Assembly: GCA_020249465.1 (NCBI GenBank)
Contig: JADCFP010000034.1
Location: 1 to 64,000 of the forward strand
Source of the DNA: Roseomonas sp.
GTDB taxonomy: Bacteria > Pseudomonadota > Alphaproteobacteria > Acetobacterales > Acetobacteraceae
Reading direction: 5' to 3'
Length of the DNA stretch: 64,000 nt
Positions 32,096-38,051 of the stretch are shown here, in pieces. How positions within the stretch are numbered: the first letter of the stretch is position 1; every line of letters starts with the position of its first letter. The translations under genes and the position numbers were made by a program. The notes beneath the pieces were generated by a model. The model searched no databases. It had not been told where the DNA came from and saw only the letters and a program-made list of their open reading frames with translations.

Positions 32096-33772
32096 TTACT
32101 TGTCGTCTTCCGCGTAAATGTCGCGGTCCTTGGTTTCCGGCACGAAGAAGGTGCCGATCACCACCGTCATCAGCGCAATGACGATCGGGTACCACAGCCC
32201 GTAATAAACATCCCCCGTCTGCGCGATCATGGCGAAGCTGGTGGCCGGCAGTAGCCCGCCGAACCAGCCATTGCCGATGTGATAAGGCAGCGACATGGAG
32301 GTATAGCGGATGCGCGTTGGGAATAGCTCCACCAGCGCCGCCGCGATCGGCCCATAAACCATGGTGACATAGATCACGAGCAGCGTGAGCACCCCGATCA
32401 ATACCGCCGGCTGTTCCCGGAAAACATCAAAGGGCGAGGACATTTTCACGACTGAGGGGTTGGACGCCGCCGGATAGCCCGCCGCCGTCAGCGCTGCCGC
32501 CAAATCCCGCGCGAAGGTTGGGCTATTGGCCGGCAGCGGCTGCTGGCCCTGGATATGCACCGTGGCGACCGTGCCTGCCGGGGCGTGTTCGACGGTGTAA
32601 TTCACCGAAGCCCGCGCCAGCGCTGCCTTGGCGATATCGCAAGGCTGGGTGAAGCGCGCCGTGCCGGTCGGGTTGAACTGGAAGGAACAGCCCGCGGGAT
32701 CGGTCACCACCCGCACCGCAATTGTCTGATGCGCCTTATGCAGATCGGGATTGGCTTCCGCGCTCAGCAGCTTGAACAGCGGGAAGTAAGTAAGGGCCGC
32801 AATCAGGCAGCCGCCCAGGATGATCGGCTTGCGGCCAATCCTGTCCGAAAGCCAGCCAAACAGCACGAAACCGCCGGAACCCAGCACCAGCGACCAGGCA
32901 ATGAGCATGTTGGTGGTGAAGCTATCAACCTTGAGCACTTGGCCCAGGAAGAACAGGGCGTAGAATTGCCCCGTGTACCAAACCACCGCCTGACCAGCGA
33001 CGAGGCCGAGCAGCGCGAACAACGCCACCTTGGCATTCTTCCACTGGAAGAAGGCTTCGGAAATTGGCGCCTTGGAATGCTTGCCTTCCGCCTTCATCTT
33101 TTGGAAGGCCGGGCTTTCTTCCATTTGCAGGCGGATCCAGACGGAAATGCCCAGCAGCACAATGGAAAGCAGGAAGGGCACGCGCCAGCCCCAGGCCTTG
33201 AAGGCATCCGGGCCGACCGCAAGCTGCGTGAACAGAATCACGAGCAGCGACAGGAAAAGCCCTGCCGTCGCAGTGATCTGAATGAAGCTGGTGTAAAAGC
33301 CGCGCCGTCCATGTGGGGCGTGTTCGGCCACATAGGTCGCCGCACCACCATATTCGCCACCCAAAGCCAGGCCTTGCAGCAGGCGCAGGATGATCAGGAC
33401 CACCGGGGCGATAATGCCGATCTGATCCGATGTGGGCAGGATACCGACCACGAAGGTGGAAGCGCCCATGATCAGGATAGTGATCAGGAAGGTGTATTTG
33501 CGCCCGACCAGATCGCCGAGGCGGCCAAACACCAGCGCGCCGAAGGGGCGCACCAGGAAGCCGGCGGCAAAGGCGATCAGCGCGAAGATATTGCGGGTGG
33601 TTTCGGGGTATTGGCTGAAGAAGTTGGCGCCAATAACGGCAGCCAATGAACCGTAAAGATAGAAATCATACCATTCGAAAACCGTACCGAGGGAGGAGGC
33701 AAGAATGACCTTCCTCTCTTCACGGGACATTGGCCGGGGTTCAGCCCCGCCGCCCGCTGTTGTTGCACTCAT
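32096..33772 (-). CDS. MHS-family (metabolite:H+ symporter) MFS transporter with periplasmic insert
   Basis: A 558-residue MFS transporter of the ProP/KgtP-like MHS group, importing organic acids or zwitterions with protons. Signatures: 'ASSLGTVFEWYDFYLYG' in TM1, 'GRLGDLVGRKYTF' in loop 2-3, 'RLLQGLALGGEYGGAATYVAEHAP' in TM4-5, and 'GWLSDRIGRKP' in loop 8-9. Between TM9 and TM10, on the periplasmic side, an insert of about 110 residues contains two Cys ('AGCSFQF', 'TQPCDIAK'). The ORF-track start adds 53 residues; MSATTAGG at 33772 has a GAAGG ribosome site. Confidence 0.87.
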   Translation of the reverse strand: MSATTAGGGAEPRPMSREERKVILASSLGTVFEWYDFYLYGSLAAVIGANFFSQYPETTRNIFALIAFAAGFLVRPFGALVFGRLGDLVGRKYTFLITILIMGASTFVVGILPTSDQIGIIAPVVLIILRLLQGLALGGEYGGAATYVAEHAPHGRRGFYTSFIQITATAGLFLSLLVILFTQLAVGPDAFKAWGWRVPFLLSIVLLGISVWIRLQMEESPAFQKMKAEGKHSKAPISEAFFQWKNAKVALFALLGLVAGQAVVWYTGQFYALFFLGQVLKVDSFTTNMLIAWSLVLGSGGFVLFGWLSDRIGRKPIILGGCLIAALTYFPLFKLLSAEANPDLHKAHQTIAVRVVTDPAGCSFQFNPTGTARFTQPCDIAKAALARASVNYTVEHAPAGTVATVHIQGQQPLPANSPTFARDLAAALTAAGYPAASNPSVVKMSSPFDVFREQPAVLIGVLTLLVIYVTMVYGPIAAALVELFPTRIRYTSMSLPYHIGNGWFGGLLPATSFAMIAQTGDVYYGLWYPIVIALMTVVIGTFFVPETKDRDIYAEDDK

Positions 33773-33924
33773 TGAGACGCCTTCCTTCTCTTCTGTCGTT
33801 GCCCGCTTGCCGCCGGTTGGCAGGACGCGCCGCCCAAGGCGGTTTTGGCGCTCGGCACGTTCAAAGGGGCCGGGGCAAAGCCACAGGGCAAGCGTGACTG
33901 TGATGCGCGGGAATTGGGCGTTTC

Positions 33925-34030
33925 GCAACAAAAAATTAAGGAAAATAACAAAAATTACGAAAAATTTCTTGTTAATTACAAAAATTTCAGGATATTTGTG
34001 AAATTCTTGTCATGCAAATCAAGTTTCATG
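33925..34030. promoter_or_regulatory. AT-rich island upstream of the MHS transporter
   Basis: The 344 bases between the transporter start (33772) and the next gene contain no credible ORF. About 100 of them are extremely A/T-rich in an otherwise GC-rich genome. Short repeats occur on the minus strand (GAAATTTTTGTAATT and GAAATTTTTCGTAATT), together with a near-dyad TTGTTAATTACAA. It probably holds the transporter promoter and a regulator site; no specific regulator can be named. Confidence 0.5.
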
Positions 34031-34115: not shown

Positions 34116-34736
34116 TCAGGTCGCCGCGTTCATTCCGGCTGCAAGCCGCGCCGAAAGCCCCGCCGGGTCGAAGCCGCGTTCCATTTCCTGCTGGGTCGAG
34201 ACCATGTGAAACCGTAGCGCCCCGCGGATAGACGGGGCTTCGCCCTTGCGCTGGTCCGGGTGGATCGGCAGGGTCGCGAAAAGTGGCGCCTCGGCCAGCA
34301 AGGGCAGGGTTCTGGCGTCATGCGGGGCGGCCAATTGCAGCCCGGCCAAATGGCCCGGCAGGGCGGCAAGGCTGGCCGAAAAGGCCTCCTGCTCCTCGGG
34401 GGGCGGGGCTTCTTCCGTCATGAAATCGGCATGAAGGACCACCAATTGCTCGAGCAAAAGCGCCTCCCGCCCTGGGCAGAAGGGGCGCAGCCAAGCCTCG
34501 GCCAGGGCCACGACATCGCTTTGCGCGGTCAGAAAAACCTGCCAACGGCAATGGTTTAGCGCGGCCATGAAGTCGGGATTGCCGAAGAAATCCCTCTCAT
34601 TTCGTCCGATCTTGACCCGGCAATAATCAAGCACGGTCTTCTGCGCGACGAAGGCACCCTGACGGTGCAGGAAGGCCCCAAAATCCCGGGGCTCCTGTGA
34701 TGGCGGGGTGCCCAGTAAGCGGCGTAGAAAGCGCAT
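34116..34736 (-). CDS. Hypothetical protein
   Basis: A 206-residue cytoplasmic protein I do not recognise. N-terminal 'MRFLRRLLGTPPSQEPRDFGAFLHRQGAFVAQKTVLDYCRVKIGRN' is followed by mainly helical sequence and a short basic/aromatic C-terminal third. No signal peptide or membrane helix. Reading frame is strongly coding-like (Ala/Leu/Arg-rich, few rare codons) and the opposite frames are shadows. It is divergent from the DUF4212/symporter pair, with which it shares a ~165-base intergenic region. Confidence 0.65.
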   Translation of the reverse strand: MRFLRRLLGTPPSQEPRDFGAFLHRQGAFVAQKTVLDYCRVKIGRNERDFFGNPDFMAALNHCRWQVFLTAQSDVVALAEAWLRPFCPGREALLLEQLVVLHADFMTEEAPPPEEQEAFSASLAALPGHLAGLQLAAPHDARTLPLLAEAPLFATLPIHPDQRKGEAPSIRGALRFHMVSTQQEMERGFDPAGLSARLAAGMNAAT

Positions 34737-34901
34737 CAGAAGCTGGATTCCTTAAAAAAAGCTTGTTGCGACTGGATTAACAGCATGTTATCGCCGCCAG
34801 TGAATCGGGCTGTCAAATGCCCGAATCAGGTCATGCGGAATCGTGGCCAGGGCAGGTCAACAGGTCGCTCCCCAGGGGCGATCATCGGAGGAGGCAGGTT
34901 A

Positions 34902-35207
34902 ATGCCATTGGTTGAATCTGGGGGCGCGCCGTCAAATACGGAAGCCCCCGCGGTGGATAAGGCCACCGCAGCGGCCCATTGGGCCAAAACTTCCAGCCTG
35001 ATGTTGCTGGTTTTGGGCATTTGGTTCTTTGCGAGCTTCCTGGTGCATATTTTTGCGCCCTCGCTGAACGGCATCCGCATTCTTGGCTTCCCCTTTGGGT
35101 TTTACATGGCCGCGCAGGGCAGCCTGATCATCTTCGTCGTCGCGCTATTTTGGTTCGGCAAGCGCCAGAACCAGATCGACGAAGAATTCGGCGTGCAGGA
35201 GGATTGA
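34902..35207 (+). CDS. DUF4212 small membrane subunit of a sodium:solute symporter
   Basis: A 101-residue inner-membrane protein with two hydrophobic helices (about residues 32-52 and 66-88) separated by 'HIFAPSLNGIRILGFPFG', typical of the DUF4212 family, which is encoded directly upstream of VC_2705-type symporters. I start at MPLVESGG, preceded by a strong GGAGGAGG ribosome site; the ORF-track start 117 bases earlier has none. The symporter gene begins four bases after this stop. Confidence 0.88.
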   Translation: MPLVESGGAPSNTEAPAVDKATAAAHWAKTSSLMLLVLGIWFFASFLVHIFAPSLNGIRILGFPFGFYMAAQGSLIIFVVALFWFGKRQNQIDEEFGVQED

Positions 35208-35211
35208 TCCC

Positions 35212-37269
35212 ATGAGCGGAGCTTCTAAGGAAAAGGATCCCTTTATCGCCTCACTCGGCAAGATCTACGCCGGCTACACGGGCGGTTTCGCGGCCTTCGT
35301 TATTCTGATCGCTATTCTCGAACAAATGGGCGTGCCCGATCGTATTCTGGGCTACCTGTTCGTTGGCCTCACCATCGGCGTTTACGCCTATATCGGCATC
35401 ATCAGCCGTACCCAGGCGGTCGCTGAATACTACGTCGCCGGGCGGCGCGTACCTGCCCTTTACAATGGTATGGCAACCGGTTCGGACTGGATGTCGGCGG
35501 CAAGCTTCATCGGCATGGCGGGCAGCCTTTACGCCCTTGGCTATGGCGGCTTGGCCTTCATCCTGGGCTGGACCGGCGGTTACATGCTGGTCGCCATTCT
35601 GCTGGCGCCCTATCTGCGCAAATTCGGCCAATATACCGTGCCGGACTTCCTGGGCGCGCGTTACGGCGGTAATGCCGCCCGCCTGATCGGCGTGGTCATC
35701 CTGATCACCGCATCCTTCGTTTATGTCGTGGCGCAGATTGTTGGTGTTGGCATCATCACCCAGCGCTTCCTGGATGTGTCCTTCGGCGTTGCGGTGTTTG
35801 TGGGTCTGGCCGGCATTCTGGTCTGCTCCATGTTGGGCGGTATGCGCGCCGTCACCTGGACACAGGTGGCGCAATATATCGTGCTGATCATCGCCTATCT
35901 GATCCCGGCCTTCCTGATGTCGGCCAAGGTCACGGGCGTGCCGCTCCCGCAGGTCATGTATGGCTTCGCGCTGGAACGTATTGCTGAGTTGGAAAACGGC
36001 TTCCGTGCCGCGGGCATGACCCCGCCGCCCGGTGTGACCGGCTGGCACAGCGCCCCCTTCATTGGGGCAAATGGGCAATTCTCGATGCCGGCGGCGATCA
36101 ATTGGTTCGCGCTGGTCTTCTGCCTCATGGTCGGCACGGCGGCGCTGCCGCATATCCTGATGCGCTACTTCACCACGCCTTCGGTGAAGGAAGCCCGCCA
36201 GTCCGTGGCGTGGTCGCTGTTCTTCATCTTCCTGCTGTACTTCACGGCGCCGGCCTACGCGGCCTTCGCCAAGGTGGAAATCTACCAGAACATCATTGGT
36301 CAGCCGATCGCGAGCCTGCCCGACTGGATCAAGAACTGGCAGATCATCTCCCCCTATGGGGTGCCGTGGATCAATATTGTTGACGTCAACCGCGACGGCA
36401 TCCTGCAATGGAATGAATTCCGCATTCATCCGGACGTGGTCGTGCTTGCCACACCGGAAATCGCGGGCCTGCCTTATGTGATCGCGGGTCTGGTGGCGGC
36501 GGGTGGTTTGGCCGCGGCGCTTTCCACCGCCGATGGTCTGCTGCTCGCGCTCGCAAACGCGCTGTCGCATGACGTGTATTACAAGATGATTGACCGCAAC
36601 GCGCCGACCGCGCGCCGGCTGATCGTCTCTCGTGTCCTGTTGCTTGCTGTGGCTGTTGCTGCGGCCTGGACAGCTGGCAATGCGGGGGCGGATATTCTGT
36701 TCCTTGTGGCCTGGGCCTTCTCCATCGCTGCCGCCGGGCTATTTGCGGCGCTGGTGATGGGGGTTTGGTACAAGAAAACGACGAATACCGCCGCCGTTTT
36801 AGGCATGGCCGTCGGCTATGTGGTCACCTTTGGCTACATGATCCATTCGGAATGGTTCGGGATGGATTTCATCCAGCTGTTCGGATCGAAGGATGCGATC
36901 ATTGCGGCGGCACGCCAGGTAGGCAGCATCAACCAGAACTTCACCTCGCCTGAATTGCGGGCAGAAGCGGCGGCCATTCTGGCCAATACCGCTGCGGTGA
37001 AGGATGGCGCGCTGGCTTGGATCGGTAACATCTGGGGCAGCCCGATGACGACCGATACCATCGTGCTGCGTAATCGGGTGACCGGGCGCATGTGGGGGAT
37101 TGGCAGCATTTCCGCCGGTATCTTCGGCGTGCCGATTTCCTTCCTCGTCATCTATGTCGTTTCGCAATTCACCACAGCGCCAAGCCAGGCGATGCAGGAT
37201 TTCATTGACGATATCCGTATCCCGAAGGGTGGTGTCCGTCTTGCTGACAAGAGCGAGGCGGTGGAGTAA
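35212..37269 (+). CDS. Sodium:solute symporter (VC_2705/ActP-like) with embedded EF-hand loop
   Basis: A 685-residue SSS-family symporter, a likely Na+-coupled acetate/propionate/lactate importer. About 13 membrane helices; core motifs 'AVAEYYVAGRRVPALYNGMATGSDWMSAASFIGMAGS' and 'ADGLLLALANALSHDVYYKM'. In an extracytoplasmic segment near residue 391 lies 'DVNRDGILQWNEF', a perfect 12-residue EF-hand calcium loop pattern (D-x-N-x-D-G...E). With the DUF4212 subunit before it, it forms the usual two-gene transporter. Several small membrane genes follow on the same strand. Confidence 0.9.
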   Translation: MSGASKEKDPFIASLGKIYAGYTGGFAAFVILIAILEQMGVPDRILGYLFVGLTIGVYAYIGIISRTQAVAEYYVAGRRVPALYNGMATGSDWMSAASFIGMAGSLYALGYGGLAFILGWTGGYMLVAILLAPYLRKFGQYTVPDFLGARYGGNAARLIGVVILITASFVYVVAQIVGVGIITQRFLDVSFGVAVFVGLAGILVCSMLGGMRAVTWTQVAQYIVLIIAYLIPAFLMSAKVTGVPLPQVMYGFALERIAELENGFRAAGMTPPPGVTGWHSAPFIGANGQFSMPAAINWFALVFCLMVGTAALPHILMRYFTTPSVKEARQSVAWSLFFIFLLYFTAPAYAAFAKVEIYQNIIGQPIASLPDWIKNWQIISPYGVPWINIVDVNRDGILQWNEFRIHPDVVVLATPEIAGLPYVIAGLVAAGGLAAALSTADGLLLALANALSHDVYYKMIDRNAPTARRLIVSRVLLLAVAVAAAWTAGNAGADILFLVAWAFSIAAAGLFAALVMGVWYKKTTNTAAVLGMAVGYVVTFGYMIHSEWFGMDFIQLFGSKDAIIAAARQVGSINQNFTSPELRAEAAAILANTAAVKDGALAWIGNIWGSPMTTDTIVLRNRVTGRMWGIGSISAGIFGVPISFLVIYVVSQFTTAPSQAMQDFIDDIRIPKGGVRLADKSEAVE

Positions 37270-37431: not shown

Positions 37432-37752
37432 ATGGAAAGCAATTTCATCCTTGGCTATCTGCCCTTTTGGCTAGTGACCTATTTCCTGGCGCTCACCGCC
37501 TGGGGCTGCATCGGGCGCTTCATGATGCAATTCTTCATGACGCCCACGAATAGCAATTACATCTGGCGCGGCTTTCAGATGCTGACCGGCTGGGCGGTCT
37601 GGACCGCCGAGCGGCTGGTGCCGTCCTATGTCTCGCCACCCTTCCTGCCCTTGGTTGCCGCTTTCTGGCTTTTCGCGGTGCGGATGATCTTCGGCCTGCT
37701 GATGGTGGGGCTTGGCTATGCGCCGCGCATCAGCCCGCCGGGGGCGGGGTAG
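37432..37752 (+). CDS. Small hypothetical membrane protein
   Basis: A 106-residue protein with about three hydrophobic helices ('YLPFWLVTYFLALTAWGCIGRFMMQFFM', 'GFQMLTGWAVWTAERLV', 'FLPLVAAFWLFAVRMIFGLLMVG'). No family recognised. It is 160 bases after the symporter and five bases before the next small membrane gene, so those two are probably cotranslated. A role in the symporter's membrane complex is possible from position only. Confidence 0.7.
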   Translation: MESNFILGYLPFWLVTYFLALTAWGCIGRFMMQFFMTPTNSNYIWRGFQMLTGWAVWTAERLVPSYVSPPFLPLVAAFWLFAVRMIFGLLMVGLGYAPRISPPGAG

Positions 37753-37757
37753 CCGCC

Positions 37758-38051
37758 ATGATGACCCCGCAAAACCTTTTCGTCGCGACGGTTGCTACCT
37801 GCCTGCTGAATGGCATGATCAGCCCAACCCTGCCAGTGGTCTGGCATCTTTACCCCGTCTGGCTGCCAGAGCTTTTCTCGCCGACCAAGGAGGTTGTCTA
37901 TTACGGAGCCTCGCTGATCGTCTCCACCGCGACGCTTTTGCTCTCCGCCGTGCCGGCTGCGATCTCTGAGCGGTTGGGGCTCAGCCTGGAACGGGCGATG
38001 ATGGTCTGGTTCGGTACGGCGCTTTTGCTGATATTGCTTGGCCTGGGCTGA
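37758..38051 (+). CDS. Small hypothetical membrane protein
   Basis: A 97-residue protein with two or three membrane helices, beginning 'MMTPQNLFVATVATCLLNGMISPTLPVVWHL' and ending 'MMVWFGTALLLILLGLG'. No recognised domain. Starts five bases after the previous gene, consistent with a two-gene unit of interacting membrane subunits. Function unknown. Confidence 0.7.
   Translation: MMTPQNLFVATVATCLLNGMISPTLPVVWHLYPVWLPELFSPTKEVVYYGASLIVSTATLLLSAVPAAISERLGLSLERAMMVWFGTALLLILLGLG

Follow-up and report, generated by a model that had tools for sequence, protein, structure and literature searches.

A candidate calcium-binding loop in the outer-gate lid of a VC_2705-type sodium/solute symporter, with a cysteine pair at its place in some relatives

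We analyzed a stretch of 64 000 nt from Roseomonas sp. (contig JADCFP010000034.1, positions 1 to 64 000, forward strand; referred to as the window), focusing on an operon for a sodium/solute symporter. The product of the open reading frame at 35212-37269 (+) scored 704.6 bits against the NCBIfam model TIGR03648 (cut-off 320.75). The protein also matched Pfam SSF, and its nearest solved structures in Foldseek were SGLT2, SGLT1, CHT1, SiaT and NIS, as fits an SSS transporter with the LeuT-type fold. Residues S438/T439 align with S364/S365 of the Na2 site in core TM8 of vSGLT and were invariant among the aligned homologues. The equivalog cut-offs for ActP were missed by far (TIGR02711, 141.7 versus 1099.25; PRK09395, 179.2 versus 750). 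The gene for the small subunit lies directly upstream, and we observed it 5' of the symporter in 75 of 80 homologous loci. Both genes exceed the cut-offs of the TIGR03648/TIGR03647 system and are ordered as in that family, and we found no feature that separates the window protein from the family. Around the operon, an Rfam search for the TIGR03647 riboswitch candidate gave matches at chance level only. The features considered here are as follows.

34785-35207, + strand: small subunit, TIGR03647/DUF4212, 140 aa (Pfam 90.3 bits; NCBIfam 85.9 bits, cut-off 26.05)
35212-37269, + strand: large subunit, TIGR03648 VC_2705 family sodium/solute symporter, 685 aa (NCBIfam, Pfam SSF, Foldseek)
36286-36474, + strand: external loop 4 (eL4), residues 359-421, between core TM7 and TM8, containing the EF-hand-like loop and D408 (AF2 helices, vSGLT alignment)
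36370-36378, + strand: residues 387-389, INI, a beta strand leading up to the loop where a true EF-hand would have its entering helix (AF2 DSSP)
36382-36417, + strand: 12-residue EF-hand-like loop, residues 391-402, DVNRDGILQWNE (sequence, conservation, AF2 secondary structure)
36418-36426, + strand: beta strand after the loop, residues 403-405 (AF2 DSSP)

The first-pass annotation had reported a perfect EF-hand calcium loop within a sodium:solute symporter, between transmembrane helices near residue 391. We confirmed the motif, the family of the protein and, with the AF2 helices, the placement. The reported start, 36382, is the first base of the D391 codon, while the reported end, 36423, lies one codon past the end of residue 403, so that residues 391-403 (DVNRDGILQWNEF) occupy 36382-36420 (+). 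The loop, D1-V-N3-R-D5-G6-I-L8-Q-W-N-E12, fits the canonical EF-hand loop perfectly, and its first part, DVNRDG, satisfies the linear motif Dx[DN]xDG. In a protein of the same composition the expected number of chance matches is 1.2e-5 for the strict pattern (DxNxDGx[ILVM]xxxE) and 4e-4 for a lax version; a chance match was ruled out, the motif being too rare and too conserved. We found no second EF-hand loop in the 685-aa sequence. The calcium-type loop proved to be a common, not a universal, feature of the TIGR03648 family, and it is named by none of the family models.

We then compared the site with known calcium loops. The AF2 model is of high confidence, with a mean pLDDT of 91.4 overall and blocks averaging 91-95 in the region of the loop. 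It predicts that residue 397, at loop position 7, forms a bridge and that residues 400-402 (positions 10-12) form a turn of helix. The helix-loop-helix flanks of an EF-hand are absent from the model, in which a strand precedes the loop and a three-residue helix turn and then a strand follow it; because of this strand-loop-short helix arrangement we speak of an EF-hand-like Dx[DN]xDG loop and not of an EF-hand domain. Although the 12 residues fit exactly, the similarity to the Pfam EF-hand families is weak: the loop fragment scored below threshold with PF13202 (15.7 versus 25.9 bits) and PF00036 (14.8 versus 25.4 bits), and the whole symporter matched no EF-hand family in Pfam at E<=1. A true EF-hand domain was ruled out by the missing flanking helices, the single copy of the loop and the Pfam scores below gathering level. 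Searching the PDB with the loop sequence returned EF-hand-type and chance matches only. Among the closest counterparts are the Dx[DN]xDG loops outside EF-hand domains (Rigden et al. 2011, PMC3123361), which share the linear motif and its entry from a strand instead of a helix; in the window protein the host is the external gate loop of a transporter. That paper names no transporter or symporter and uses 'transmembrane' once, for the human protein TIP. In the open-access papers that we searched, a calcium-type loop in a symporter was not described, and queries on EF-hands together with SSS, on DUF4212 and on calcium sites in LeuT folds gave nothing relevant.

In the alignment with vSGLT the loop comes after core helix 7 and just before core helix 8, which places it in eL4. 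According to a review of prokaryotic SSS transporters (PMC7918813), eL4 takes part in closing the outer pathway of vSGLT, SiaT and PutP, and its residues F314 and E311 in PutP are important for closure; the position in these proteins is homologous, and a metal site is not described there. As eL4 of PutP closes the periplasmic entrance, the site in the window protein would face the periplasm. An intracellular calcium sensor was ruled out, since the loop is external and precedes the helix of the Na2 site. The corresponding segment is much shorter in ActP of E. coli and of a Sphingobium.

Next, we investigated how far the presumed ligand positions are conserved, and observed the loop to be kept in both close and distant relatives among the VC_2705-type symporters. 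In the ten closest homologues (L002-L009, L011, L012) D1, N3, D5 and G6 were found without exception, and position 12 was E in seven and D in three, so that the acidic positions are conserved in close homologues. For a broader view we used 42 short loops without cysteines, non-redundant at 80% and selected without requiring the motif. D1 and D5 were each present in 40 of the 42, N3, G6 and Q9 in 39 and E12 in all, while positions 2, 4 and 10 were variable; conservation at precisely positions 1, 3, 5, 6 and 12 beside variable neighbours indicates selection, and is what one would expect of ligands that matter. In a second deep branch (40 rows, the majority taken from the wider samples of class and phylum) DxNxDG and the final E are retained, but extra residues, varying in number, are inserted between loop positions 9 and 12. 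The homologues were drawn from best hits and proteobacterial genome samples, with a few plasmid records. A small clade (L031, L036, L041, L145) has D-x-[ND]-x-N-G with a 13-residue insert before the final E, and its long loop is apparently of separate origin. Six residues past E12, D408 (codon 36433-36435) was invariant in alignment A1, in calcium-type as well as cysteine-type loops, which suggests that it probably has a role in the lid that is independent of metal, perhaps, by analogy, like that of E311 in PutP.

In some relatives the place of the loop is taken by a pair of cysteines. Across 166 relatives the ligand set was kept in 131 (129 by pattern and additionally L192 and L199, in which G6 is the sole difference), a category whose patterns were written after seeing the sequences and whose hybrid pattern is loose. 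A cysteine pair accompanies the ligands in 15 of these 131; the pair alone, with the ligand set lost, was found in 34 relatives, and neither in one (L182). In the hybrids the first cysteine stands immediately before D1, and loop positions 2 and 3 are parted by an insert that holds the second. The AF2 model of a cysteine-only relative (L046) shows the bridge, helix turn and strand past loop position 6 as in the window protein, and a helix between C378 and C392 stands in for the D-x-N-x-D part. A tree computed from the columns outside the loop implies at least 5 changes of the ligand state and at least 10 of the cysteine state. When lineages were compared in pairs, the two traits changed in opposite directions in 2-3 cases and in the same direction in none, save for one of 200 pairings, and the independent-pairs test of ligand loss against cysteine gain gave p values of 0.25-0.5, the 2-3 informative independent pairs being too few to reach significance. 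The complementarity is thus striking by number, whereas the phylogeny does no more than suggest it. The insert is wholly absent from three relatives, two of them haloarchaeal (one annotated as VC_2705 family) and the third L193, from which it follows that it is dispensable for the core transport cycle.

From these observations we consider it probable that the loop is a standing structural Ca2+ brace of the periplasmic gate lid and that a disulfide can take over its role. The motif, its pattern of conservation, its place in the fold, the predicted strand-loop-helix shape and the distribution of ligands and cysteine pairs are what we observed; that calcium binds, that the cysteines form a disulfide and that gating is affected is what we infer. 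One periplasmic Ca2+ would be bound, most likely through D391, N393, D395, the backbone carbonyl of I397 and E402. Its affinity may be low, the loop being single, unpaired and without the helices that flank a true EF-hand. The bound ion would pin the small beta hairpin and shape the lid, which packs on the core upon closure of the outer gate, and would serve folding and gating as a permanent brace and probably not as a signal. Some lineages would have gained a cysteine pair inside the loop, several of them afterwards dropping the acidic ligands, so that the putative disulfide appears able to brace in the same manner; as the pair replaces the loop ligands in some lineages, the lid seems to need one brace or the other. 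Since the loop is conserved and lies in the external loop of the outer gate, an influence of calcium on transport is plausible. The full sequence of claims, in which the lid of a large, widespread family of bacterial symporters uses periplasmic Ca2+, transport needs external calcium and ion and disulfide were exchanged repeatedly through intermediates with both, is put forward only tentatively. If it holds, the outer gate of transporters with the SSS/SLC5-type fold would gain a conserved metal site within a loop whose control of access to the binding sites is established, and some nutrient uptake in Gram-negative bacteria would depend on external calcium. The relatives would then offer a natural series (ion only, ion and disulfide, disulfide only) for studying how a gate lid is braced and for which braces another kind can stand in.

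The first-pass annotation had suggested that the loop could make carboxylate transport calcium dependent. Read as regulation, external Ca2+ in the physiological range would open or close the lid and tune uptake. Such a sensor would profit from a site within the gating loop and outside the membrane, where free Ca2+ differs among habitats. A single unpaired loop may also have an affinity that matches the environmental Ca2+ range. However, a cysteine pair that replaces the loop in several lineages is better suited to structure than to sensing, both a paired EF-hand and an effector domain are absent, and we found no report of Ca2+ effects on any SSS transporter in the open-access papers searched. 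It is the replacement by cysteines, together with the periplasm-facing site, that speaks for a structural brace rather than a switch. We judge a regulatory sensor possible but unlikely, and less likely than the standing brace.

More improbable still is a loop that binds no metal, with the Asp/Asn/Gly pattern only giving a beta hairpin its tight Asx turns, and a salt bridge or helix cap as the part played by E402. Asx turns do favour D, N and G, the invariance of D408 extends across all loop types, and position 12 is retained as E or D in many cysteine-type loops that lack D1, N3 and D5, so that E12 may have a metal-independent role as well. Indeed, the roles of E12 and D408 appear to outlast the calcium ligands. 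Against a mere turn, D1, N3, D5 and E12 are jointly near-invariant, in the exact EF-hand register and in two deep branches. We see only a slight chance that the site binds another cation (Mg2+, Mn2+, a lanthanide or Na+) instead of Ca2+: in EF-hands, D at position 12 shifts the preference towards Mg2+, and three of the ten closest homologues have it, but over the weighted sequences this position is E in 83% and D in 15%, a bidentate Glu favouring Ca2+, and neither of the lanmodulin-like residues, Pro at position 2 and Asp at position 9, is present (39 of the 42 loops have Gln at the latter).

Regarding the substrate, relatives in Paracoccus denitrificans, Limimaricola, Haloferax gibbonsii and Halocatena adjoin genes for acetyl-CoA synthetase (acetate--CoA ligase). 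Haloferax volcanii ActP, which is encoded in a similar cluster, is an experimentally characterised acetate transporter (PMC7746861). The H. gibbonsii and Halocatena loci closely resemble that cluster in gene order (acs - DUF4212 - symporter), the symporter of H. gibbonsii carrying a VC_2705 family annotation. By analogy a carboxylate substrate is plausible for the window protein; the comparison with H. volcanii ActP runs through two other haloarchaeal homologues, both of which are without the calcium-type loop.

Further genes surround the operon. Directly 3' of the symporter lies a frame for a 106-aa protein (37432-37752, +), followed by one for 97 aa (37758-38051, +); both products are hydrophobic by eye and gave no Pfam or NCBIfam match above cut-off. 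They recur in 52 and 37 of the 80 homologous loci, respectively, on the strand of the symporter in every locus where they are present, and may be unrecognised partners of the transporter. On the other side lies a divergent upstream gene (34116-34736, -), whose 206-aa product belongs to no known family and which occupies the same place in 49 of the 80 loci. A gene resembling MFS metabolite:H+ symporters lies near the operon (32096-33931, -); a relative of it occurs within the fetched stretch in 15 of the 80 loci, on varying sides.
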